Positions 3,179 through 52,771 of a stretch of DNA of 64,000 bases are shown piece by piece. The stretch comes from Enterobacter sp. CC120223-11 (lineage in GTDB: Bacteria > Pseudomonadota > Gammaproteobacteria > Enterobacterales > Enterobacteriaceae), in contig NZ_OBEF01000011.1 of NCBI RefSeq assembly GCF_900215375.1, positions 62,001 through 126,000 of the forward strand, in the 5' to 3' direction. A model generated the notes under the pieces. It did not search any database, was not told the DNA's origin, and saw only the letters and a program-made list of their open reading frames with translations. Position 1 is the stretch's first letter; each line of letters begins with the position of its first letter. The position numbers and the translations under genes are program-made.

Positions 3179-3919
3179 TCAGTACATCACTTTGTGACCG
3201 TATTGCTCAAGGATGCCCTTGACGCGGTCCATCGTCTCTTTCTTCGGCGGATGCACGCCGTCCAGCTTGTACTCTTCGCCCATCGCCACCCATTTGTGTT
3301 TGCCGAGTTCATGGTAGGGCAGCAGCTCAATTTTTTCGACGTTGCCCATATCGCGGGTAAATTCGCCGAGACGGTGGGCAGAATCGTCATCGTCGGACCA
3401 GCCAGGCACAACGACATAGCGGATCCAGACGTTAATATTCTTGTTCGCCAGATAGCGGCAAAACTCCAGGGTGCGATGGTTGGAGACGCCCACCAGGTTC
3501 TGGTGAATATCGTCGTTCATCTGCTTGAGATCGAGCATCACCAGGTCGGTCACCTCCAGTAGTTCATCAATTACCGGGTCGTAGCGACGGACAAAGCCGT
3601 TGGTGTCGAGGCAGGTGTGGATGCCTTCTTTGCGGCAGGCGCGGAACCAGTCACGCACAAATTCAGCCTGCAAGATGGCTTCGCCGCCGGAAGCCGTGAC
3701 GCCGCCGCCGGACGCATTCATAAAGTGGCGATAGGTCACCACTTCCTTCATAAGTTCTTCAACGGTGATTTCTTTGCCGCCGTGGGTGTCCCAGGTGTCG
3801 CGGTTGTGGCAGTACAGGCAGCGCATCAGGCAGCCCTGGAAGAAAGTGATAAAGCGGATCCCCGGGCCATCGACGGTGCCACAGGATTCGAAGGAGTGAA
3901 TGCGACCAATTGCTGACAT
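3179..3919 (-). CDS. pflA: Pyruvate formate-lyase-activating enzyme PflA
   Basis: PflA is the radical-SAM enzyme that makes the glycyl radical on PflB under anaerobic conditions, using S-adenosylmethionine and a [4Fe-4S] cluster. The cluster motif CxxxCxxC is present as Cys30, Cys34 and Cys37 in [11 protein letters not shown]. The frame extends 18 codons further upstream, but the ATG giving [11 protein letters not shown] produces 246 residues, exactly the E. coli length, so that start is chosen. It lies downstream of pflB on the same strand, with a terminator-like hairpin between them, which fits read-through or separate expression at a lower level than pflB. Confidence 0.97.
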
Positions 3920-4073
3920 TGCGGTGTTTTCTCCAGATACGGCCCATCCGGGGCCAGTGTATGCACAGCTCAAAACCGGCTGTGTTAAGTCTGTTTTGGC
4001 AGAGACCCATACCTTTTCAAAGTATAGATGGCTGGCAAAGCAGGCTGGAGCAGGAGCAGGAGAGTAATTGTTA

Positions 4074-4099
4074 AAAAGGCCCCACGGGTGTGGAGCCTT
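4074..4099 (-). terminator. Terminator after pflB
   Basis: Read on the minus strand, a 10-bp stem with one G-U pair (4076-4085 with 4090-4099) is followed by TTTTTAA. It lies 41 bases past the pflB stop and probably limits transcription into pflA. Confidence 0.8.
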
Positions 4100-4140
4100 T
4101 ATTGTACGCCGATTACTGCGTAATTTCAGTCAAAACCCAA

Positions 4141-6423
<2,283 letters not shown>

Positions 6424-6474
6424 GTAACACCTACCTTCTTATGTGGATTTTTTATTTACTGCCTGAAACAACCG

Positions 6475-7332
6475 TTAGTGCTGGTCGTTGCCACGCAGGT
6501 AAATGACCCAGTACGTCAACCCGACTAACAGACCACCGCCGATAATGTTGCCGATTGTCACCGGAATCAGGTTATCAGTGATGAAGTTCATGACAGTCAA
6601 GTGTGAGAAATGGTCCGGAGTGGAACCGACAGCGGTCCAGAATTCCGGGCTGGCGAAGTTCTTAACGACGATCCCCATCGGGATCATAAACATGTTTGCG
6701 ATGCTGTGCTCAAAGCCGCTGGCGACGAACATCGCAACCGGCAGCACCATGATCATCGCTTTGTCCATCAGGCTGCGGCCGGAGTAGCTCATCCATACGG
6801 CCAGACACACCATCAGGTTTGCCAGAATACCGAGGCAGACGGCCTCAATAAAAGTATGATGCATTTTGTGGTCGGCAGTTTGCAGGACGTTCAGGCCCCA
6901 TCCACCGTTGGCGGTCATATATTCGCCAGAGAGCCACATCAGCAAAACAAAGAGCAGACAACCAATCAGGTTACCAACATAGACGTTGAACCAGTTCTTC
7001 GCCAGCTGCCCCCAGGTGATTTTACCGCTCGCTTTCGCGACAACGATCAGCACCGTAGAGGTGAAGAGATCGGCCCCGCAGATCACGCACAGGATAAGAC
7101 CCAGTGAGAAGCAGATACCACCAATCAGCTTGGCAACGCCAAACGGCATACCTGCTGTGCCTGTTGTGGCGGTGATATAGAAGACGAAGGCAATAGAGAT
7201 GAAGACACCCGCAGTAATCGCCAGGAAAAAGGTTTTGAGCGGTTGTTTCGTTGCTTTATAGACACCCGCTTCCTCGGCCACTTTGGCCATCTCAGCTGGG
7301 AGTAAAAGATCAAAAGGGTTGTCAGCTTTCAC
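6475..7332 (-). CDS. focA: Formate channel FocA
   Basis: FocA is the pentameric inner-membrane channel that exports, and can re-import, the formate made by PflB. It belongs to the formate/nitrite transporter family and shows six membrane-spanning stretches. The start chosen is a GTG encoding VKADNPFDLLLP, preceded by a GAGAGAG ribosome-binding stretch. It gives 285 residues, as in E. coli, where the start is also GTG. The open frame continues upstream only because no stop intervenes; that extension falls in promoter DNA. Expression should rise without oxygen through the FNR site about 60 bases upstream. Confidence 0.96.
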   Translation of the reverse strand: MKADNPFDLLLPAEMAKVAEEAGVYKATKQPLKTFFLAITAGVFISIAFVFYITATTGTAGMPFGVAKLIGGICFSLGLILCVICGADLFTSTVLIVVAKASGKITWGQLAKNWFNVYVGNLIGCLLFVLLMWLSGEYMTANGGWGLNVLQTADHKMHHTFIEAVCLGILANLMVCLAVWMSYSGRSLMDKAMIMVLPVAMFVASGFEHSIANMFMIPMGIVVKNFASPEFWTAVGSTPDHFSHLTVMNFITDNLIPVTIGNIIGGGLLVGLTYWVIYLRGNDQH

Positions 7333-7392
7333 ACTAACTCTCTCTTTATTAAGTCGGCGACGAGATACTAACAAAGCATTATAGAAGAGAAA

Positions 7393-42386: not shown

Positions 42387-44999
42387 ATGACACAACAGCC
42401 CCAAGCCAAATACCGCCACGACTACCGTGCGCCGGAATACCTGATCAGCGATATCGACCTGACCTTTGACCTGGATGCCGCAAAAACCGTCGTGACGGCT
42501 GTCAGCCAGATTACCCGTCACGCTGCGTCTGCCACGCCACTGCGCTTGAACGGTGAAGACTTAACGCTGATTTCACTGCACGTGAATGATGAGCCGTGGA
42601 GTGAGTATAAAGAAGAAAACAATCAGCTGGTGATCGACGGCCTGCCGGAGCGTTTTGAGCTGCGCATCGTCAACGAAATCAGCCCGGCTGCGAATACCGC
42701 GCTGGAAGGGCTTTACCAGTCCGGTGAAGCGCTCTGTACGCAGTGTGAAGCTGAAGGCTTCCGCCATATCACCTGGTATCTCGATCGCCCGGATGTGCTG
42801 GCGCGCTTTACCACCAAAATTATCGCCGATAAGAGCAAGTACCCTTATCTGTTGTCCAACGGCAACCGCGTTGCTGAAGGTGAACTCGAAAACGGTCGTC
42901 ACTGGGTGCAGTGGCAGGATCCGTTCCCGAAACCTTGCTACCTGTTCGCGCTGGTGGCCGGTGACTTCGACGTGCTGCGTGATAAATACGTCACCCGTTC
43001 TGGCCGTGAAGTGGCGCTGGAGCTGTTCGTCGATCGCGGTAACCTGGACCGCGCGCCGTGGGCGATGACTTCGCTTATCAACTCCATGAAGTGGGACGAA
43101 GAGCGCTTTGGCCTCGAGTACGATCTCGACATCTATATGATTGTCGCCGTCGACTTCTTCAACATGGGCGCAATGGAGAACAAAGGCCTCAACGTCTTTA
43201 ACTCCAAATATGTGCTGGCCCGCACCGATACGGCAACCGATAAAGACTATCTCGATATCGAACGCGTTATTGGCCACGAATACTTCCACAACTGGACCGG
43301 CAACCGCGTTACCTGTCGTGACTGGTTCCAGCTGAGCCTGAAAGAGGGCTTAACGGTGTTCCGCGATCAGGAGTTCAGCTCCGACCTCGGCTCCCGCGCG
43401 GTGAACCGCATCAGCAACGTGCGCACCATGCGCGGCATGCAGTTTGCAGAAGATGCCAGCCCAATGGCGCACCCGATTCGCCCGGACATGGTTATCGAAA
43501 TGAACAACTTCTACACCCTGACGGTGTATGAGAAGGGTTCAGAAGTGATTCGCATGCTGCACACGCTGCTTGGCGAAGCGAACTTCCAGAAAGGGATGCA
43601 GCTGTACTTTGAGCGTCACGACGGCAGTGCCGCCACCTGCGATGATTTTGTGCAGGCGATGGAAGATGCCTCCAATGTCGATCTCTCCCACTTCCGCCGC
43701 TGGTACAGTCAGTCCGGCACGCCAGTTGTGACCGTGCATGACGACTACAACCCGGAAACCGAGCAGTACACGCTGACCATCAAGCAGCACACGCCGCCGA
43801 CCTCAGAGCAGCAGGATAAGCAGCCGCTGCACATTCCGTTCGATATCGAGCTGTATGACAACGAAGGCAAAGTGATTCCGCTGCAGAAGGGCGGTCATCC
43901 GGTACATAACGTGCTGAACGTGACCCAGGCCGAGCAGACGTTCATCTTCGACAATGTGTACTTCCAGCCTGTGCCGTCCCTGCTGCGTGAGTTTTCTGCG
44001 CCGGTGAAGCTGGAGTATAAGTGGAGCGATCAGCAGCTGACTTTCCTGATGCGTCACGCTCGCAATGACTTCTCCCGCTGGGATGCCGCGCAGAGCCTGC
44101 TTGCCACCTACATCAAGCTCAACGTCAATCGTCATCAGCAGCACCAGCCGCTGTCGCTGCCGGTTCACGTGGCCGATGCGTTCCGCGCCATTCTGCTGGA
44201 TGAGAACATCGACCCGGCGCTGGCGGCCGAAATTTTGACGCTGCCTTCGGTGAATGAAATCGCCGAGCTGTTCGAGATCATCGATCCGGTGGCCATTGCG
44301 ACGGTGCGTGAAGCGCTGACCCGCACGCTGGCCAAAGAGCTGGCGGACGAGTTCCTGGCTATCTACAACGCCAACAAGCTTGATGCTTATCGCGTTGAAC
44401 ATGCGGATATTGGCAAGCGCTCCCTGCGTAACACCTGCCTGCGCTACCTGGCGTTTGGCGATGCAGAGCTTGCGGATAAGCTGGTTCAGCACCAGTATCA
44501 TCACGCTGACAACATGACCGACGCTCTGGCAGCGCTGGGCGCGGCGGTGGCGGCTCAGCTGCCGTGTCGCGATGCGCTGATGCAGGAGTACGACGACAAA
44601 TGGCACCATGACGGTCTGGTGATGGACAAGTGGTATATTCTGCAAGCCACCAGCCCGGCGGAAAACGTACTGGAAACCGTGCGTGGCCTGCTGAAGCACC
44701 GCTCTTTCACCCTGAGCAACCCGAACCGCATTCGTTCGCTGATTGGGGCTTTTGCGATGAGCAACCCGGCGGCGTTCCATGCGCAGGATGGCAGCGGTTA
44801 TCAGTTCCTGGCAGAAATGCTGACCGAACTGAACAGCCGTAACCCGCAGGTGGCTTCCCGTCTGATTGAACCGCTGATCCGCCTGAAGCGTTACGATGCA
44901 GCGCGTCAGGAAAAAATGCGCGCAGCGCTGGAGCAGCTGAAAGGCCTGGAGAATCTCTCCGGCGATCTGTTCGAGAAGATCGGCAAAGCGTTAGCGTAA
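42387..44999 (+). CDS. pepN: Aminopeptidase N (PepN)
   Basis: PepN is the cytoplasmic M1-family zinc aminopeptidase that does most of the broad-range peptide trimming in enterobacteria. It has 870 residues, as in E. coli. The exopeptidase motif GAMEN lies in MGAMENKGLN (about 261-265). The zinc motif HEYFH, followed by the glutamate ligand in LKEGLTVFRDQE (about 297-320), is complete. A beta-sandwich domain and a large helical C-terminal domain follow. It is divergent from pncB, with 264 bases between. A GC-rich hairpin follows, and then the accessory block begins, so pepN marks the left border of that insertion. Confidence 0.98.
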   Translation: MTQQPQAKYRHDYRAPEYLISDIDLTFDLDAAKTVVTAVSQITRHAASATPLRLNGEDLTLISLHVNDEPWSEYKEENNQLVIDGLPERFELRIVNEISPAANTALEGLYQSGEALCTQCEAEGFRHITWYLDRPDVLARFTTKIIADKSKYPYLLSNGNRVAEGELENGRHWVQWQDPFPKPCYLFALVAGDFDVLRDKYVTRSGREVALELFVDRGNLDRAPWAMTSLINSMKWDEERFGLEYDLDIYMIVAVDFFNMGAMENKGLNVFNSKYVLARTDTATDKDYLDIERVIGHEYFHNWTGNRVTCRDWFQLSLKEGLTVFRDQEFSSDLGSRAVNRISNVRTMRGMQFAEDASPMAHPIRPDMVIEMNNFYTLTVYEKGSEVIRMLHTLLGEANFQKGMQLYFERHDGSAATCDDFVQAMEDASNVDLSHFRRWYSQSGTPVVTVHDDYNPETEQYTLTIKQHTPPTSEQQDKQPLHIPFDIELYDNEGKVIPLQKGGHPVHNVLNVTQAEQTFIFDNVYFQPVPSLLREFSAPVKLEYKWSDQQLTFLMRHARNDFSRWDAAQSLLATYIKLNVNRHQQHQPLSLPVHVADAFRAILLDENIDPALAAEILTLPSVNEIAELFEIIDPVAIATVREALTRTLAKELADEFLAIYNANKLDAYRVEHADIGKRSLRNTCLRYLAFGDAELADKLVQHQYHHADNMTDALAALGAAVAAQLPCRDALMQEYDDKWHHDGLVMDKWYILQATSPAENVLETVRGLLKHRSFTLSNPNRIRSLIGAFAMSNPAAFHAQDGSGYQFLAEMLTELNSRNPQVASRLIEPLIRLKRYDAARQEKMRAALEQLKGLENLSGDLFEKIGKALA

Positions 45000-45030: not shown

Positions 45031-45084
45031 AAAATCAAAATCCGCCGTTATAGTAAGAATAGTGTGCTCAACAGGCGAATGGCG

Positions 45085-45813
45085 ATGTCTTACTCCATTG
45101 GTGAATTTGCCCGGCTCTGCGGAATTACCCCCGCGACTCTTCGGGCGTGGCAGCGCCGTTATGGTCTGCTCCGGCCACTGAGAACCGACGGCGGGCACAG
45201 GCAGTACACTGAAGACGATGTGCAGCAGGTTTTAATCATTCTCGACTGGATCAAGAAGGGCGTTTCCGTCGGGCAGGTGAAGCCTTTGCTGACTCGCGCC
45301 ACGCAGCCGCAGCACCACAACTGGCGCGATATGCAGGACGCAATGCTCCAGCGACTTAAAGAAGGAAAAGTAGAATCGCTTGGACAGCTCCTCTATGACG
45401 CCGGGCGCGACTATCCCCGCACGGATTTAGTAAGAGAAGTGCTTCGTCCTCTGCGCAGCAAAGTCTCCGCCAATATTCCCGTCATGCAAACTCTGCGCAA
45501 CCTTCTCGATGGGATCATCATTTCCTACGTCTCATTTTGTTTACGCGCCGATAAAAAAGCCTCAGGCGAGAATGTTCTGCTTTGCGGCTGGCATCTCAAT
45601 GACCCGTGTGAAATCTGGCTCGAGGCGCTGATGCGTACCGGGCAAGGGCTACGCATCGATCTGCTTCCGTCAGGCTTCACCACGCTGTCGCCGGAGATAT
45701 TCCCTGACCGAAAGTGGCTGTTGGTCACCACCGGAGAGCTCACGGCAGGCAGACAAAAACAGATCCAGCAATGGCGGCAAGAGGTTCATTCGCTGGAGGT
45801 GATTACGCTCTGA
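45085..45813 (+). CDS. MerR-family regulator, MlrA/BluR/LitR-like
   Basis: The protein has 242 residues from MSYSIGEFARLCG. An ATG two codons earlier and a GTG seven codons earlier are also open; the start is chosen because AGG lies about 9 bases upstream and the MerR domain begins there. Residues 3-70 form the MerR DNA-binding domain (TLRAWQRRYGLL, GGHRQYTEDD). A helical segment (about 80-155) and an alpha/beta C-terminal part (162-240) resemble the cobalamin-binding half of CarH/LitR regulators. The DxHxxG cobalamin motif reads DPCEIW (173-178), so B12 binding is unlikely. It probably controls the eight-gene operon that starts 216 bases downstream. Confidence 0.85.
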   Translation: MSYSIGEFARLCGITPATLRAWQRRYGLLRPLRTDGGHRQYTEDDVQQVLIILDWIKKGVSVGQVKPLLTRATQPQHHNWRDMQDAMLQRLKEGKVESLGQLLYDAGRDYPRTDLVREVLRPLRSKVSANIPVMQTLRNLLDGIIISYVSFCLRADKKASGENVLLCGWHLNDPCEIWLEALMRTGQGLRIDLLPSGFTTLSPEIFPDRKWLLVTTGELTAGRQKQIQQWRQEVHSLEVITL

Positions 45814-45956
45814 AATTGTGGGTACGCTCTGCCGATTACTTAAATATCCCCCTAAACCTGTCCACTTTGGCGGCCAGTAGCTACGCTTGACGTTTACGCT
45901 CGCCTTCTCGTAATAAACTGAAAAATCGACAAAACAGAATATATCGTTCTCAAATC

Positions 45957-45985
45957 TTGGACAGATTTCGCACAGTGTCTAAGTT
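45957..45985 (+). promoter_or_regulatory. Predicted promoter with overlapping inverted repeat, head of the accessory operon
   Basis: TTGGAC, a 17-base spacer and TAAGTT form a plausible sigma-70 promoter 45-73 bases upstream of the first structural gene. The near-perfect inverted repeat TTGGACA-N12-TGTCTAA (45957-45982) spans from the -35 box into the -10 box. A further half-site, TGTCCA, lies at 45859-45864. This is a good candidate operator for the neighbouring MerR-type protein. Confidence 0.5.
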
Positions 45986-46029
45986 TTAATCATGGGCGCT
46001 TTTCGTCTCTCACCACAAGGGCGGGCAAC

Positions 46030-46464
46030 ATGAGTACTCCTTCTGGCGTCATTGACCGCTTTGTTCAGTATTACGTGGCTCTGGATAACCAGCCTGTCTC
46101 CACGGTCCGGACCCTTTATCACCCTGCAGCCCGGCTCGTTGATCCGTTTGGCGAACACCAGGGCAGTGAGGCGATCGCACGTTATTTTGAGCATCTGCTG
46201 GCCAATGTGCGCCAGTGCCGATTCGACATCGACAAAATTCTGCAGCAGGGCAACGACTTCTCGGTGTCCTGGATCATGCGGTGGGCGCATCCTCGTATAA
46301 AGGGCGGTGAAATTTTGTCCCTCCCTGGCTGCTCAATGGTGACGTCTCAGGGCGAAACCGTCATTTATCAGCGTGATTATTACGATGCCGGGGAGATGCT
46401 GTACGAACATCTGCCGATTTTGGGCTGGGCGGTACGCGGTGTGAAAAGGCGGGTGCGCGTATGA
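46030..46464 (+). CDS. NTF2/SnoaL-like domain protein
   Basis: The 144-residue protein begins MSTPSGVIDRFVQYYVALD. The pattern of an initial helix, a YHPAARLVDPFG segment and later strands SVSWIMRWAHP and VIYQRDYYDAGEML fits the SnoaL-like NTF2 fold. That fold forms a small cone-shaped cavity used either for binding lipophilic ligands or for isomerase-type chemistry. Its exact role is unknown. It is the first gene of the accessory operon, and similar proteins occur beside the same dehydrogenase and amine-oxidase-like genes in other proteobacteria. Its stop overlaps the next start (ATGA). Confidence 0.82.
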   Translation: MSTPSGVIDRFVQYYVALDNQPVSTVRTLYHPAARLVDPFGEHQGSEAIARYFEHLLANVRQCRFDIDKILQQGNDFSVSWIMRWAHPRIKGGEILSLPGCSMVTSQGETVIYQRDYYDAGEMLYEHLPILGWAVRGVKRRVRV

Positions 46465-47180
46465 AGACCGTGCTTATCACCGGGGCCAGTTCAGGTATTG
46501 GCGAAGGATTGGCAAAGTCATGGGCCGATGATGGCTGGCAGGTGATCGCCTGCGGTCGCGATCGGCAGAGGCTGGACGCGCTGGAACAATACCATGGCCG
46601 TATCAGCGGGCGTGTGTTTGACATCACCGACGCAAACGCCTGTCAGCAGGCGCTGGCAGACTGTGCCGCCGATCTGGTGATTCTCTGCGCGGGAACCTGT
46701 GAATACATGGATCAGGGCGTGATTGATGCAGCAAGCGTGGAACGGGTCATGGCGACCAACTTTATGGGGCCGGTCAACTGCCTTGCTGCGCTTCAAAGCC
46801 GGCTGACCCCCGGTTGTCGGGTGGTGCTGGTGAGTTCCATGGCGCACTGGCTCCATTTTCCCCGAGCAGAGGCTTACGGTGCGTCGAAAGCCGCTGTCAC
46901 CTGGTTCGCTCGCTGCCTGCGGCTGGAGTGGGAGCGAAAAGGTATCGCCGTCACGGTTGTGTTCCCGGGTTTTGTCGACACGCCACTGACGCAGAAAAAT
47001 GATTTTGCGATGCCGGGCCTGGTCAGCGTTGAAGAGGCGGTGAGGGCCATTCGGCGCGGTGTTGCAAAAGGCAAAGCAGAGATCGCGTTTCCGCAAGGTT
47101 TTGGCCTGGTGTTGCGAGCGCTCGGCGCATTACCCGCTTTTGCTCAGCGCGCCCTGCTGCGCAGGATGGTGCGACCATGA
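46461..47180 (+). CDS. Short-chain dehydrogenase/reductase
   Basis: The 239-residue protein is a classical SDR. It has the cofactor loop TGASSGIG (7-14), an Asn-Ala-Gly equivalent reading CAG (76-78), the catalytic serine region VLVSSMAHW (Ser125/126), and the YxxxK pair Tyr139 and Lys143 in AYGASKAAV. PGFVDTPL follows (169-176). CGRDR after the second strand suggests NADP(H). In this context it probably reduces or oxidises a lipid-derived carbonyl or alcohol; that is inference. It is coupled to both neighbours by ATGA overlaps. Confidence 0.88.
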   Translation: MKTVLITGASSGIGEGLAKSWADDGWQVIACGRDRQRLDALEQYHGRISGRVFDITDANACQQALADCAADLVILCAGTCEYMDQGVIDAASVERVMATNFMGPVNCLAALQSRLTPGCRVVLVSSMAHWLHFPRAEAYGASKAAVTWFARCLRLEWERKGIAVTVVFPGFVDTPLTQKNDFAMPGLVSVEEAVRAIRRGVAKGKAEIAFPQGFGLVLRALGALPAFAQRALLRRMVRP

Positions 47181-48439
47181 AGATCGCGATAGTCGGGAGC
47201 GGGATTGCTGGCTTAACCTGCGCCTGGCGGCTGGCCGGGCATCATCAGGTCACTCTTTTTGACGCAGGCGTGACGGCTGGCGGCCACACGGCAACGGTGG
47301 ACGTCGACACGCCTCAGGGAACCTATGCCATCGACACGGGTTTTATCGTCTACAACGATCGCACCTATCCGCGTTTTATCGGGCTGTTGAGCGAGCTGGG
47401 TATCAGCGGGCAAAAAACGGAGATGAGTTTCTCCGTACACAACCCGGTAAGCGGCCTGGAATATAACGGTCACACGCTCGCTTCGCTGTTTGCCCAGCGC
47501 CGTAATCTTTTCAATCCCTCTTTCTGGGGATTGCTCAAAGAGATACTGCGCTTTAATCGCCTGGCCAAGCAGGCATTAACTGCGCCTTTACGTGAGAGCG
47601 ACACGCTGGAGAGCTTCCTGGAAAAGCACGGCTTCAGCGCTTTTTTCGCAAAGCATTATATTTTGCCGATGGGCGCCGCCATCTGGTCCTCTTCGCTTCA
47701 GGAAATGCGTCGCTTCCCACTCCCGCTGTTTTTACATTTTTTTGAGCATCACGGTCTGCTGGACGTGACGCAACGCCCGCAATGGTACGTGGTGCCCGGC
47801 GGGTCGCGGGAGTACGTCCGGGCCATGCTTAATGCCCTGGGTGGACGCATTGACCTGAAGCTGGACTCACCAGTGCAGAAAGTCATTCGGCACGAGCGGG
47901 GTGTTGAACTTGAGGCGGGTGGCGCGACTTACGCCTTCGATCAGGTGATATTTGCCTGCCATTCCTCGCAGGCCCTTTCCTTGCTGGAGCAGCCTTCAAA
48001 GAGTGAGGAGGAGATCCTCGGCGGGATTAGCTGGCAGCGTAATGAAGTGATTTTGCACAGCGACGCGCGCTGGCTGCCGAAGCGCAAACGGGCCTGGGCG
48101 AGCTGGAATTATCGCCTGAGCGAACACGACGAGGCCCGGGCCTGTATGACCTACAACATGAATATTTTGCAGGGGCTTCCTGAGGGCAGCCCACTCTTTT
48201 GCGTCACGCTCAACCCGGACTCTCCCATAGATGAGCGTTTCGTATGGCGACGTTTTGAGTATGAGCATCCGCTGTTTACGCCGCAAAGCGCGCTCGCTCA
48301 GGCACGGCGTAAAGAGATTAACGGCCAGCAGCGGAGCTGGTTCTGCGGGGCTTACTGGTACAACGGCTTTCACGAGGACGGCGTGCGCAGTGCGCTGGAT
48401 GTGGTGCAGGGGATTGCCAGAGAGGAGGGTGCCCAATGA
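47177..48439 (+). CDS. FAD-dependent amine-oxidase-like protein (COG2907 type)
   Basis: The 420-residue flavoprotein has the dinucleotide-binding motif GSGIAG (7-12) in IAIVGSGIAGLTCAWRLAG, followed by HTATVDVDTPQG and IDTGFIVYN, features of the NAD(P)-binding Rossmann-like amine-oxidase group. The middle part includes LPMGAAIWSSSLQEMRRFPLP and the C-terminal part FCGAYWYNGFHEDGVRSAL. The group is similar to phytoene desaturase and protoporphyrinogen oxidase and is usually found beside DUF1365 and Cfa-like genes. A role as a fatty-acyl desaturase or oxidase in lipid modification is likely but not proven. ATGA overlaps occur on both sides. Confidence 0.87.
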   Translation: MKIAIVGSGIAGLTCAWRLAGHHQVTLFDAGVTAGGHTATVDVDTPQGTYAIDTGFIVYNDRTYPRFIGLLSELGISGQKTEMSFSVHNPVSGLEYNGHTLASLFAQRRNLFNPSFWGLLKEILRFNRLAKQALTAPLRESDTLESFLEKHGFSAFFAKHYILPMGAAIWSSSLQEMRRFPLPLFLHFFEHHGLLDVTQRPQWYVVPGGSREYVRAMLNALGGRIDLKLDSPVQKVIRHERGVELEAGGATYAFDQVIFACHSSQALSLLEQPSKSEEEILGGISWQRNEVILHSDARWLPKRKRAWASWNYRLSEHDEARACMTYNMNILQGLPEGSPLFCVTLNPDSPIDERFVWRRFEYEHPLFTPQSALAQARRKEINGQQRSWFCGAYWYNGFHEDGVRSALDVVQGIAREEGAQ

Positions 48440-49158
48440 ACAGCTGCCTCTATCAGGGAATGCTGCGTCACCGTCGCATGCACCCGCGAATCCATCAGTT
48501 TCAGTACCGCCTTTTTATGGCGTGGCTCGACCTGGATGAACTGGACGCACTCCCTTCAGTGGGGATCCGACGTAATCGGTTTGCCGTCGCCTCGTTTCAC
48601 GACAGCGATTATCCGCTGGGGACGCCGCTCAAGGCGCAGGTATTAGCGCGGCTGGAAGCGCTGACGGGCCAGCGCCCTGAAGGACGGGTGATGCTTCTGA
48701 CCCAATTACGCTATTACGGCTTTCATTTCAACCCGGTTAATTTTTATTACTGTTATGACCGGGCAGGCACGCTTGGCTGGATCCTGGCGGAAGTGCGCAA
48801 CACGCCGTGGAATGAGAGGCACTACTATGCGGTTGACGGGCAGCGGACGTTGCCGGTTGCTAAAGCGTTCCACGTTTCGCCGTTTAACCCCATGGATATG
48901 GTTTATCACTGGCGCTTCAACTGCCCGGGCCAGACTTTGCGCATGCACATCGAAAACCATCAGCAGATGAAAATTTTTGACGCCACCCTGATGCTGACCC
49001 GTTTGCCTCTCACGCGTCCGGTGCTGGCGAGGTTGATGCGCCGACTCCCCCTGATAACGCTGAAAACGGTTGTCGCTATCTACTGGCAGGCGCTGCGGCT
49101 CTGGTTTAAGCGTGTGCCACTTCATTCTCACCCCGCTAACAGGAGCGAACGCTCATGA
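48436..49158 (+). CDS. DUF1365 family protein
   Basis: The 240-residue protein begins MNSCLYQGMLRHRRMHPRIHQFQYRLF. The starting hydrophobic-basic pattern, LTQLRYYGFHFNPVNFYYCYDR (central) and KAFHVSPFNPMDMVYHW identify DUF1365. The many conserved aromatic and His residues suggest a binding site, but no reaction is established. DUF1365 genes nearly always sit between the amine-oxidase-like and Cfa-like genes, which points to one pathway. The start lies in the preceding stop (ATGA), and its own stop overlaps the methyltransferase start. Confidence 0.87.
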   Translation: MNSCLYQGMLRHRRMHPRIHQFQYRLFMAWLDLDELDALPSVGIRRNRFAVASFHDSDYPLGTPLKAQVLARLEALTGQRPEGRVMLLTQLRYYGFHFNPVNFYYCYDRAGTLGWILAEVRNTPWNERHYYAVDGQRTLPVAKAFHVSPFNPMDMVYHWRFNCPGQTLRMHIENHQQMKIFDATLMLTRLPLTRPVLARLMRRLPLITLKTVVAIYWQALRLWFKRVPLHSHPANRSERS

Positions 49159-50375
49159 CCGATCCCGCCTTAGCGCTTGAACCTGGTATTCCTCGCAAAG
49201 CCCGTATCGCGCGGCGATTGCTGTTCCGCCTGTTGGCTGGCATTGAACAGGGGTCGATCACCGTCATCGACGGCGGCCGTCATTTTCATTTTGGCAATCC
49301 TGCCGATGCGCTGAGCGCAGAGGTGCGGGTCGTCAATTCAGTCGCCTACTGGCGCGTGCTGACCGGTGGCAGTCTTGCCGCTGCCGAAACCTGGATGGAC
49401 GGCGAGTGGGAAACGCCCCATCTGACGGTGCTGCTGCAGATCCTGGCTCTTAATGGAACGGTTCTCGGGCGGCTGGAATACGGCTTCAGGTTGCTGGGGG
49501 CCCCTGTCGAACGCATACGCCACTGGATGCGTCGTAACCACCGGTCCCAGGCCAGGGAGAATATCGCGGCCCACTACGATCTGGGTAATTTGTTCTATGC
49601 CCATTTCCTCGATGAAGATCTGCTTTATTCCAGCGCGCTGTTTAGCGCCGACAATCAGGATTTGCGCAGCGCTCAACGGGCGAAAATGGCGCGGCTGTGC
49701 GAGCAACTGGCGCTGCAGGCCGGGGATCATCTGCTGGAAATTGGCAGCGGATGGGGAGCCATGGCGGAGTATGCCGCTCGTCATTATGGCTGCCGGGTGA
49801 CGACGGCGACGCTCTCCCAGGAGCAGTACGACTGGACCCGCAGGCGAATCGCCCTGGCCGGGCTGCAGGACAGAGTGGAAGTGCTGCTTTGCGATTATCG
49901 TGATTTAAACGGCCAGTATGACAAGCTGGTTTCTGTCGAAATGATCGAAGCGGTAGGCCAGCGCTATCTGCCTGAGTTTTTCCGCACCTGTCAGGCTCGT
50001 CTCGTTCCGGGCGGCAAAATGGTGATTCAGGCGATTACCATCCAGGATCAGCGTTTTCAGGATTATAGGAAAAGCGTTGATTTTATTCAGCGTTATATCT
50101 TTCCGGGCGGATTCCTGCCGAGCATCACGGTCATGAGTCAGCTCATGACCCGCCATACCGATTTTGTCGTGCGCAACGTCTTTGATATGGGGCCCGACTA
50201 CGCCCGGACGTTATCACACTGGCGCCAGCGTTTCGTGCAGGCCTGGCAGGATATTGAAAAACTCGGCTTTGATGAACGGTTTCGGCGGATGTGGCTTTAC
50301 TACTTTGGTTACTGTGAGGCGGGATTCAATGCCCGGACCATCAGCGTCGTTCAGCTCACTGCCGAACGTGTATGA
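49155..50375 (+). CDS. Cyclopropane-fatty-acid-synthase-like SAM methyltransferase
   Basis: The 406-residue protein belongs to the Cfa/mycolic acid methyltransferase family. An N-terminal lipid-binding domain (about 1-125) is followed by IAAHYDLGNLFY and SAM motif I LLEIGSGWG (193-201), SVEMIEAVG and DMGPDYARTL. Compared with E. coli Cfa, the bicarbonate-site residues Cys139 and His266 are replaced by Ser160 and Gln292, while Glu265 and Tyr349 remain. It should still bind SAM and phospholipid acyl chains, but may methylate without closing a cyclopropane ring, as UfaM-type enzymes do in furan fatty acid synthesis. It is not the housekeeping cfa gene, which lies elsewhere in enterobacteria. Confidence 0.87.
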   Translation: MTDPALALEPGIPRKARIARRLLFRLLAGIEQGSITVIDGGRHFHFGNPADALSAEVRVVNSVAYWRVLTGGSLAAAETWMDGEWETPHLTVLLQILALNGTVLGRLEYGFRLLGAPVERIRHWMRRNHRSQARENIAAHYDLGNLFYAHFLDEDLLYSSALFSADNQDLRSAQRAKMARLCEQLALQAGDHLLEIGSGWGAMAEYAARHYGCRVTTATLSQEQYDWTRRRIALAGLQDRVEVLLCDYRDLNGQYDKLVSVEMIEAVGQRYLPEFFRTCQARLVPGGKMVIQAITIQDQRFQDYRKSVDFIQRYIFPGGFLPSITVMSQLMTRHTDFVVRNVFDMGPDYARTLSHWRQRFVQAWQDIEKLGFDERFRRMWLYYFGYCEAGFNARTISVVQLTAERV

Positions 50376-50857
50376 GCCCCCGTCTGCGGGTTGCGTTGCT
50401 GGCCGTGGGTTTCGATATCTACTGGACGCTGGTGGTGTTGCTTCGTGAACGTGGGGAATATATTTGGTTGGCGCTGGCGATAGTGGCCTGCGGTATTTTG
50501 CCTGCTCGCCAAAGCATCCTGGCGGTGGCGCTCACCCTGGCGGGCTGCCTGCTGGACAGCCTGTGGCTGAAAACAGGGCTGGTCTTATTTGAAGGCAGCC
50601 AGTTTCTGCCGCTGTGGATGATGTCGCTCTGGCTGATGTTCGCCTCCGTCTGGACGCATTTGATGTGTACCACGACGCTGCCGCTCTGGCTGATGACGCT
50701 GCTGGCCACGGTCGGTGGCCCGGCGGCCTATGTGATTGGCCAACATGTAGGGGCAATGGTCTTCCTGAAGCCCTGGCTTACGGTGTGCAGCGCCATGGCG
50801 TGCGGATGGCTGGTGCTGGCGCTTCTGTTTCATTGGATGGTGAGGCAATGGCGATGA
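50372..50857 (+). CDS. DUF2878 integral membrane protein
   Basis: The 161-residue, highly hydrophobic protein has five or so membrane segments: about residues 3-20, 25-50, 60-95, 98-120 and 130-158. It matches the DUF2878 group in size and composition and is typically encoded right after the Cfa-like gene. Its role is unknown; an inner-membrane partner that presents or moves lipid substrates is possible. It starts in the methyltransferase stop codon and ends in the next start (ATGA at both junctions). Confidence 0.82.
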   Translation: MSPRLRVALLAVGFDIYWTLVVLLRERGEYIWLALAIVACGILPARQSILAVALTLAGCLLDSLWLKTGLVLFEGSQFLPLWMMSLWLMFASVWTHLMCTTTLPLWLMTLLATVGGPAAYVIGQHVGAMVFLKPWLTVCSAMACGWLVLALLFHWMVRQWR

Positions 50858-51381
50858 TAGGCAAGGCGTTGCTCCTGATTGGGCTGACCATCGCGCTGCC
50901 CGTGTTGGCCACCACAAGCTGGCTGAACTGGCAAAAAGTGGGTGAGGCGACGCTCACCTGGGGGCCGTTTACCGTATACCATTCACAGCTTTTCACGCCC
51001 GATGGTCGTCCGGGCGGGCCGGGTAGCGATCGGGCTCTGGTCATTACCTATCTGCGAGATGTCGATCGGGAGGATCTTATCGAGGCCACCCGTAAACAGT
51101 GGCAGGCGCTGGGGATAATGACGAATGAAGCAGAAAGCGAGGCATGGCTCAAGCAGCTTGATGGCTTCTGGCCGGACGTGCATCCGGGCACCCAGCTCAC
51201 GTTTTCCATCATAAGTCAGCAAGGCCAGTTCTGGTATCGCGCATCCGCAGCACAAAAGGGGTTCATTCCGATAGGGCCGCCGCAATCGCTACGCTTCAGC
51301 CAAAGCTTTTTGGCGATATGGCTCGATCCTCACACCCAGTATCCTGAGCTGCGTCAGCAGCTACTCGGAGGCAGACAATGA
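50854..51381 (+). CDS. Secreted chalcone-isomerase-like protein
   Basis: The protein has 175 residues from the ATG that overlaps the DUF2878 stop (ATGA). An ATG two codons earlier is in frame, but the ATGA start fits every other junction and has TGAGG eight bases upstream. The N terminus MIGKALLLIGLTIALPVLAT is a signal peptide or anchor, so the domain faces the periplasm. LNWQKVGEATLTWGPFTVYHSQLFTPDG and SQSFLAIWLDP fit the chalcone-isomerase-like fold (Chalcone_3 type), whose relatives bind fatty acids. No flavonoid chemistry is implied. It is likely a fatty-acid-binding partner of the pathway. Confidence 0.8.
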   Translation: MIGKALLLIGLTIALPVLATTSWLNWQKVGEATLTWGPFTVYHSQLFTPDGRPGGPGSDRALVITYLRDVDREDLIEATRKQWQALGIMTNEAESEAWLKQLDGFWPDVHPGTQLTFSIISQQGQFWYRASAAQKGFIPIGPPQSLRFSQSFLAIWLDPHTQYPELRQQLLGGRQ

Positions 51382-51908
51382 GACGAATAGTAACGGCGTG
51401 CCTGGCACTGATGATGCTACTGAGTGGATGCAGCACCGAAATCACTGACTACCGACAGCAGCAGCCCGCGTTAGATATATTTCACTATTTCAACGGGCAA
51501 ACGGAAGCCTGGGGCATGGTGCAGGATCGGCAGGGGAAACAGCTCCGCCGTTTCCACGTGGTGATCAACGGCACGGTAGTGGGTGACACCCTGACGCTTG
51601 CGGAGCAGTTCCGCTATGACGATGGAGAAAAACAGCAGCGCGTCTGGCACATTCGGCGCACCAGCCCGGGACGCTACGAAGGCAGGGCGGGCGATATTCA
51701 GGGCGTTGCGAAAGGGCAGTCGGCGGGGAACGCCCTGCACTGGCAGTACAGCATGAACGTGAAGGCCAACGGCAAAACCTGGCTGCTGGACTTTGATGAC
51801 TGGATGTACCTGCAGGACGGTCAGCACCTGTTTAATAAAACGGAAATGAAAAAATTTGGCTTCACCGTGGGTGTGGTCACGCTGTTTTTCTCCAAATCAG
51901 CGTCGTGA
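51378..51908 (+). CDS. DUF3833 lipoprotein
   Basis: The 176-residue protein has a lipoprotein signal: basic start MRR, hydrophobic core and lipobox LSGC with acylated Cys18. The next residue is Ser rather than Asp, which favours outer-membrane sorting by Lol. The body (HYFNGQTEAWGMVQDRQGK, YLQDGQHLFNKTEMKKFG) matches DUF3833 and looks lipocalin-like, with alternating strands. Its function is unknown; a lipid-binding or chaperone role in the periplasm is inferred from context. It is the last gene of the operon and is followed by a long-stem terminator. Confidence 0.83.
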   Translation: MRRIVTACLALMMLLSGCSTEITDYRQQQPALDIFHYFNGQTEAWGMVQDRQGKQLRRFHVVINGTVVGDTLTLAEQFRYDDGEKQQRVWHIRRTSPGRYEGRAGDIQGVAKGQSAGNALHWQYSMNVKANGKTWLLDFDDWMYLQDGQHLFNKTEMKKFGFTVGVVTLFFSKSAS

Positions 51909-52003: not shown

Positions 52004-52771
52004 TCAAGCTTTCTGACGAACAGGCGCCTGCGGAGCGCCACGTTTCATCACCCGATTTAACACTTCAGCTTCCAGTTCTGCCAGGCGCGCCGATCCTTTT
52101 CGGCGCGGGCGAGGGAGATCAATCGTCAGATCGAGGCCAATTTTGCCTTCCTCAATCAGCAGCACCCGGTCGGCCATCGCCACCGCTTCGCTGACGTCGT
52201 GCGTCACCAGCAGCACGGTGAAACCCTGACTCAGCCACAGCGTTTCAATCAGATCCTGCATCTCCAGCCGCGTGAGGGCATCGAGTGCACCCAAAGGTTC
52301 ATCCAGCAGCAGTAAGCCCGGGCGATGAATCAGGGCCCGCGCCAGCGCCACGCGCTGTTTTTGTCCACCGGACAACGCCGCAGGCCACTCCCCGGCGCGA
52401 TCGTCCAGCCCAACGGCCTCCAGCGCATCGAGGGCGCTTTGCCGCCAGCTGCCTTTCAGACCCAGGCCGACGTTATCGATGACCGTCTTCCACGGCAGCA
52501 GCCGCGCATCCTGAAACATCATTCTCGTTTCCTGCTGGCTGGCGCTCAGCGGCCCGTTGCCCGCCAGAAGTTCGCCCTCATTAGGTTTTTCCAGCCCGGC
52601 CAACAGGCGAAGCAGCGTGCTTTTACCGCCACCGCTGCGGCCCACTACCGCCACAAACTGGCCCGCAGGTATGTGCAGATTGAGCTCATTGAGTACAGTG
52701 TTCGTGCCGTAGCGTTTGCCGATGCCGTTCAGCAGCAGCGGAATGCCGGGGTTCAGACGCGCCGTATTCAT
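52004..52771 (-). CDS. ssuB: Aliphatic sulfonate ABC transporter ATP-binding protein SsuB
   Basis: SsuB is the ATPase of the SsuABC importer, which brings alkanesulfonates into the cell as a sulfur source. It has 255 residues, as in E. coli. Walker [10 protein letters not shown] (about 43-51), the ABC signature LSGGQKQR and Walker [13 protein letters not shown] are intact. It is the last gene of the ssuEADCB operon and overlaps ssuC by four bases. Its stop faces the accessory operon, so it forms the right border of that insertion. Confidence 0.96.

Follow-up and report, generated by a model that had tools for sequence, protein, structure and literature searches.

In a stretch of 64,000 nucleotides from Enterobacter sp. 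CC120223-11 (hereafter the window), a block of nine genes between pepN and ssuB is probably an accessory photo-oxidative-stress lipid operon, a reading built on sequence and on analogy with described systems, in which the identity of the fatty acid and that of its inducer are the inferred parts. The enzymes of the block are a known kind of pathway, whereas its switch site and its link with further genes of light damage appear to be new. The end product would probably be a methyl-branched or furan fatty acid built into the membrane against light or oxygen damage.

The gap between pepN, which ends at 44999, and ssuB, which lies on the minus strand and ends at 52004, is about 7 kb long, and the nine open reading frames at 45085-51908 are all intact and on the plus strand, the last eight of them tightly packed, as the sequence-only reading of this DNA had described them. 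The features are:

45085..45813, plus strand: MlrA/BluR-type MerR regulator gene (merR), 242 aa; Pfam MlrA_helical, MlrA_C, MerR_1
45958..45981, plus strand: predicted operator TGGACA-N12-TGTCTA, 48 bases upstream of the ntf2 start codon
46030..46464, plus strand: NTF2/SnoaL-like gene (ntf2); Pfam SnoaL_2
46461..47180, plus strand: SDR oxidoreductase gene (sdr), with ATGA overlap; Pfam adh_short
47177..48439, plus strand: UfaD-like FAD desaturase gene; Pfam Amino_oxidase
48436..49158, plus strand: UfaO-like DUF1365 gene; Pfam PF07103, 269 bits
49155..50375, plus strand: UfaM-like fatty-acyl methyltransferase gene of the Cfa superfamily; Pfam CMAS, 289.5 bits
50372..50857, plus strand: DUF2878 membrane protein gene; Pfam DUF2878
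50854..51381, plus strand: chalcone-isomerase-like exported protein gene, with ATGA start at 50854; weak Pfam Chalcone_3
51378..51908, plus strand: DUF3833 lipoprotein gene with LLSGC lipobox; Pfam PF12915

A spacer of 216 bases separates merR, for which an ATG at 45079 is a possible alternative start, from ntf2. Because all seven junctions from ntf2 through DUF3833 are four-base ATGA overlaps, these eight genes almost surely form one transcript. A scan for sigma-70 promoters and terminators gave no excess over shuffled sequence, and no Rfam family was matched. The gene labels given from the sequence alone agree with Pfam throughout, except that the chalcone-isomerase-like protein stays below threshold (Chalcone_3, 24.2 bits, where 27 is the cut-off); the family is matched at E ≤ 0.01 by 13 of 25 aligned proteins, and the window protein has a hydrophobic N terminus as judged by eye. 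The lipobox motif of the DUF3833 protein is present in 68 of 70 relatives. When the block is compared with two relatives (L099 and L067), dN lies at 0.125-0.47 and dS, near-saturated, is at least 1.0, with DUF2878 showing the weakest constraint among the genes; that dN is well below dS counts in favour of the photo-oxidative-stress lipid operon.

Within the genus, two of the seven genomes sampled have DUF1365; the counts are 35 of 295 for genomes of the family, 20 of 154 for genera and 153 of 398 for genomes sampled across the phylum. One DUF1365 scan supplied the relative loci used here (the best 80 of 84, some cut by contig ends), which span Klebsiella, Enterobacter, Citrobacter, Rahnella and others. 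Co-occurrence of the eight genes had been named beforehand as a test of the block, and it holds: all eight are present in 60 of these 80 best loci and all nine in 46, and the genes are colinear on one strand in 79, which is far removed from chance. The ufaD-like, DUF1365 and cfa-like genes are each found in 80/80, followed by sdr (78), ntf2 (77), DUF3833 (70), DUF2878 and the chalcone-isomerase-like gene (65 each) and merR (57).

The constant trio at the centre of the block points to its chemistry. Rhodobacter sphaeroides ufaM, ufaD and ufaO, the last with a DUF1365 domain within its product, are enough to convert cis-vaccenate to a methylated furan fatty acid; three other genes of the operon, RSP1087-1089, are reported to be dispensable for the furan (PMC7380195), so the extra genes of the window may serve another purpose. 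Halomonas has ufaM, ufaD and ufaO consecutively; its ufaM in E. coli gave 11-methyloctadec-12-enoate, and cyclic fatty acids were also present in Halomonas cells with ufaM (PMC12089945). The window trio has the families and the order expected of UfaD-UfaO(DUF1365)-UfaM, with the gene of a FAD amine-oxidase/phytoene-desaturase-type flavoprotein, as in UfaD, adjoining the UfaO-like gene. Among 26 phylum-wide loci (the new ones among the best 30 of the 153 genomes with DUF1365), a UfaD homologue stands 5' of DUF1365 in all 26 and a Cfa-like gene 3' of it in 25. Residues H12, H20, D58, E119, N122 and H146 of DUF1365 are invariant in 34 sequences and form a possible metal site.

Aligned to the E. 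coli Cfa structure 6bqc, the window methyltransferase has S160, E262, E265, A266, Q292 and Y349 in place of C139, G236, E239, H240, H266 and Y317, so that E239 and Y317 are retained. Its 105 relatives have E, E, A and Q at the G236, E239, H240 and H266 positions in 104 of 104 readable sequences each and Y at the Y317 position in 103 of 103; the C139 equivalent is S in 97, A in five and G in two. In E. coli Cfa, C139, G236 and H266 are site residues; the positions compared here bind the catalytic bicarbonate, for which a glutamate at 236 can presumably substitute. In Cfa this bicarbonate accepts the proton (PMC10491745). Because key active-site positions are changed, also in nearly all 105 relatives, the Cfa-like enzyme of the block is probably no cyclopropane synthase. 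A PDB search with it, like one with the regulator, returned relatives only. The membrane fatty-acid modification pathway of the sequence-only reading is supported by the families of the trio, their order and a non-Cfa active site.

As for the site of the block, we take pepN and ssuB to stand in the same order in E. coli, and E. coli genomes gave no match in our searches. The block is an extra at this site because pepN and ssuB are only ~80-105 bp apart in six further genomes from the genus, and since pepN was not found in the available flanks, some of them short, of any of the best 80 of 84 relative loci, pepN-ssuB looks unusual as a block site. One of these six, G005, carries a block at another place; the proteins it encodes share 65-80% identity with those of the window (DUF2878 53%), against 95% for PepN over the part aligned, 91% for SsuC and 86% for SsuB. 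The low identity of the block relative to PepN would suggest separate recent acquisitions within the genus. In the tree, the two copies are sisters (SH-aLRT 97) on long branches, which may reflect either fast divergence with relocation or separate gain; neither is favoured, because the tree unites the copies despite their low identity. GC content gives no mark of insertion (57.2% in both block and pepN). Plasmid mobility was considered and set aside: DUF1365 is matched by 96 of 72,556 plasmid records, with identity above 60% only in two, both Klebsiella, one of which is probably a chromosome because it is 5.4 Mb long.

The regulator is, judged from its sequence, the third MlrA/BluR-type MerR of this genome, with a MerR HTH and MlrA helical and C-terminal domains in Pfam. 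It is 44% identical to a paralogue on contig C19, MlrA-like as judged by its neighbours, and 38% identical to one on C13, which is BluR-like because it lies directly 3' of a BLUF gene. Its score of 214 against the NCBIfam MlrA equivalog, whose cut-off is 417, makes it a relative of MlrA and not MlrA itself; MlrA is a curli activator and is not known to be light-driven. Pfam found no B12-binding domain in the window regulator, nor the B12-binding_2-like region of the class II LitR (PplR/PmlR) light regulators, whose DNA binding is lost in light. BLUF photoreceptors occur in 21 of the 35 block-positive genomes; this count does not support a BLUF protein as a universal sensor, and no universal photoreceptor was found.

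The inverted repeat TGGACAGATTTCGCACAGTGTCTA at 45958-45981 is the predicted operator, a candidate site backed by conservation. In relatives, scanned with TGTACA-N12-TGTACA, it takes the form TGGACA-N12-TGTGTA and variants, mostly 72-79 bases upstream of ntf2 and within a longer repeat AAACTTGGACAA...TTGTGTAAGTTT; three Mangrovibacter loci have a perfect TGTACA-N12-TGTACA. The Rahnella/Erwinia group has merR as first gene, preceded by TGTACA-N13-TGTACA, and in the N12 group no operator repeat was found upstream of merR or downstream of DUF3833. At most 300 bases upstream of merR or ntf2, 69 of the best 80 of 84 loci have the repeat (48 N12 and 21 N13), compared with 0/80 for the reversed pattern and a rate of 0.00125 for shuffled sequence; the final pattern was fitted to the data, N13 having been added for Rahnella/Erwinia, with the reversed and shuffled controls as its only safeguards. 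The 11 loci without the repeat are six merR-less Pectobacterium loci (L131, L133-L136, L144), two loci that are cut (L074, L127) and three from outside the enterobacteria (L141-L143), and 14 of the 80 have the repeat without an adjacent merR. The window's own genome has the N12 pattern at four places, against two for the backward control: the site in the window and one upstream of a sensor-kinase-like gene are intergenic, and two are coding. Each half-site of the window is one base off the operator published for PplR/PmlR, which respond to light, T(G/A)TACA-N12-TGTA(C/T)A, with the same N12 spacing (PMC9758184).

In 33 of the best 80 of 84 loci, rudS is the next gene after DUF3833, on the same strand and at a distance of -50 to +123 bases. 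A protein sampled from the rudS cluster has the Pfam 2-thiouracil desulfurase and DUF1722 domains, which is the make-up of RudS, a tRNA 4-thiouridine desulfidase (PMC11417400). In both genomes read that have the repeat without an adjacent merR, a merR 69-70% identical to that of the window lies far from the block and is separated from rudS by one small transthyretin/HIUase-family gene, and in both of them TGGACA-N12-TGTGTA lies ~32 bases upstream of this rudS. The window operon is without rudS; its genome has rudS beside phr on C10, where the N12 repeat was not found. Distant relatives combine rudS-merR-phr with all eight genes (L242), or sigma, ChrR, rudS and phr with the block (L241) or with ntf2 to cfa-like only (L239). 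Vibrio cholerae VC1122, which is Cfa-like, rises in blue light, and the blue-light response of this species runs overall through ChrR and a MerR (PMC5241685); for E. cloacae, a UVA-induced drop in 4-thiouridine has been recounted and a merR near rudS noted (PMC11417400). The link to stress and light in the sequence-only reading has thereby gained an operator of light-regulator type, a linked rudS and, in distant relatives, phr and sigma/ChrR.

Put together, a UfaM-like enzyme would use SAM to methylate cis-vaccenoyl chains of membrane phospholipid, a UfaD-like flavoenzyme would then desaturate the branched chain, and DUF1365/UfaO would insert oxygen derived from O2, leading to closure of the furan ring. 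The NTF2-like and SDR proteins might assist or tailor these steps, while three others, the membrane protein DUF2878 and the exported chalcone-isomerase-like protein and DUF3833, may act on the lipid, or on what is made from it, within the envelope. The MlrA/BluR-type MerR would bind TGGACA-N12-TGTCTA at 45958 and repress the operon until light or singlet oxygen, directly or via a partner protein, releases it. In relatives, rudS, whose product removes the near-UV-sensitive tRNA base 4-thiouridine, is either part of this operon or preceded by a repeat of the same kind.

Three other explanations share part of this evidence. That the block encodes an additional cyclopropane fatty acid synthase together with helper genes would agree with the CMAS match, with the retained E239 and Y317, and with related loci in which the DUF1365 neighbour is annotated as belonging to the cyclopropane-fatty-acyl-phospholipid synthase family; it is nevertheless very improbable, as C139, G236, H240 and H266 have become S, E, A and Q, the last three identically in 104/104 readable relatives, and C29 of the same genome already encodes a Cfa with the canonical C, G, E, H, H and Y. 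A canonical cyclopropane synthase was rejected on the active-site positions. It is possible, if rather unlikely, that the trio works as described and the SDR, NTF2-like and chalcone-isomerase-like proteins lead on to another methylated, oxygenated or cyclised chain and not to the known furan. R. sphaeroides needs three genes only (PMC7380195), yet ntf2 and sdr are kept here nearly as constantly as the trio (77 and 78 of the best 80 of 84 loci), and an NTF2-SDR-FAD-DUF1365-cfa-DUF2878 set is co-regulated in Aeromonas (PMC10012899); no known chemistry requires a further step, however, and the helpers could equally supply a cofactor or handle the product.

A switch that controls the same lipid pathway but senses flavin, redox, temperature or growth phase in place of light or singlet oxygen is likewise possible, if rather unlikely. 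The nearest relative of the regulator within its genome is MlrA (44%), named from its neighbours, the block-positive genomes share no universal photoreceptor, and the Aeromonas cluster answers to riboflavin (PMC10012899), but the operator type, rudS, phr and the sigma/ChrR linkage all indicate light damage, and VC1122 is up in blue light (PMC5241685).

A wider proposal, which we advance tentatively, is that many Enterobacterales, among them Klebsiella pneumoniae and the Enterobacter cloacae group, have a light/singlet-oxygen regulon that has drawn little notice, under a third, B12-free MlrA/BluR-type MerR, which would join lipid remodelling, with a furan fatty acid that the chalcone-isomerase-like protein and DUF3833 would carry across the envelope, to the removal of tRNA 4-thiouridine, and in which DUF1365, where H12, H20, E119 and H146 are invariant, would represent a new metal-dependent oxygenase. 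Such a joint lipid and tRNA regulon, if true, would account for the drop in 4-thiouridine reported for E. cloacae under UVA. Should our reading of the block hold, common enterobacteria make these fatty acids with a MerR as a simple switch, and protection of the membrane is coupled to that of tRNA. Thanks to the conserved repeat, the regulon can be tested in dozens of strains; the NTF2, SDR, DUF2878, chalcone-isomerase-like and DUF3833 genes, constant as they are, mark a further part of the pathway. The sequence-only reading had not noticed the operator, the frequent position of rudS as the following gene, the changed active site or the variation in insertion site; none of the open-access papers searched describes the Enterobacterales operator, the fact that rudS shares it, or the active-site signature.

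Compared with known systems, the block shares the FAD desaturase-like, DUF1365 and SAM methylase families with UfaM-UfaD-UfaO of R. sphaeroides and Rhodopseudomonas palustris, where the genes answer to ChrR, whereas the window has a MerR with a candidate operator; ufaM of R. sphaeroides lies apart, whereas the window trio is contiguous, with five further genes in the run (PMC7380195). The light-inducible pmlR1/pplR cluster of Pseudomonas has a MerR-family regulator, SDR, FAD oxidoreductase and UfaM in common with the window, but holds phrB and genes that its description leaves unnamed, whereas the block is without phr. In P. mendocina, PmlR2, which has a LOV partner, binds TGTACA-N12-TGTACA and represses the light-inducible promoter of the phrB, SDR, FAD oxidoreductase and UfaM cluster; PmlR1 (318 aa) and PmlR2 (321 aa) have a B12-binding_2-like region, whereas the window MerR, at 242 aa, combines the MlrA helical domain with the C-terminal one, and the half-sites TGGACA/TGTCTA differ from those of PplR/PmlR (PMC9758184). 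Aeromonas salmonicida has NTF2, SDR, FAD oxidoreductase, DUF1365, cfa and DUF2878 in a predicted operon, as in the window; its expression falls with riboflavin, the setting in which it was studied, and the published passages on the cluster do not mention merR, an operator or a rudS linkage (PMC10012899). RudS light-responsive operons place rudS near MerR regulators and photolyase, as happens here, but the main text describing them is without DUF1365 or cyclopropane, whereas here lipid genes and rudS have the type of operator, and in many cases the operon itself, in common (PMC11417400). The gene set is thus already in print for Aeromonas and in part for Pseudomonas and Erwinia amylovora (PMC8465259), and what looks new is its regulatory and genomic variant in Enterobacterales.

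The lipid operon is present twice in Ewingella americana strain E4, on separate scaffolds (loci L118 and L132), and these two copies fall in different branches of the tree. At L118, the regulator consists of just a short HTH piece, sdr is partial and ntf2 was not found. Six Pectobacterium loci (L131, L133, L134, L135, L136 and L144) retain ntf2-sdr-ufaD-DUF1365-cfa-like and lack merR, the predicted operator repeat and the last three genes of the block; downstream of the block genes, five of the six carry a gene for a Cu-Zn superoxide dismutase (SodC). The DUF1365 gene of Serratia silvae (L102, 9001-9720) contains a stop codon within the matched stretch. Adjoining merR or ntf2, a divergent gene encodes a Blc-like lipocalin lipoprotein at L221, L222 and eight loci that carry cluster c28.

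Within the genome of the source strain itself, we located the following features:

C10:22000-36000 (L146), 5009-7387: full-length RudS-type (tRNA 4-thiouridine desulfidase) gene, DUF1722 match
C22 (L152), 4284: perfect TGGACA-N12-TGTCCA repeat, 5' of a large sensor-kinase-like gene
C13 (L226), 3399-5566: BLUF-domain gene, then an MlrA-family MerR gene

The RudS-type gene adjoins phr, a photolyase-type gene, and lacks the N12-spaced repeat that precedes the lipid operon. The repeat on C22 could be either a second target of the window's MerR or a chance occurrence, and the two genes on C13, which resemble a BluF-BluR pair, are a possible partner for that regulator.
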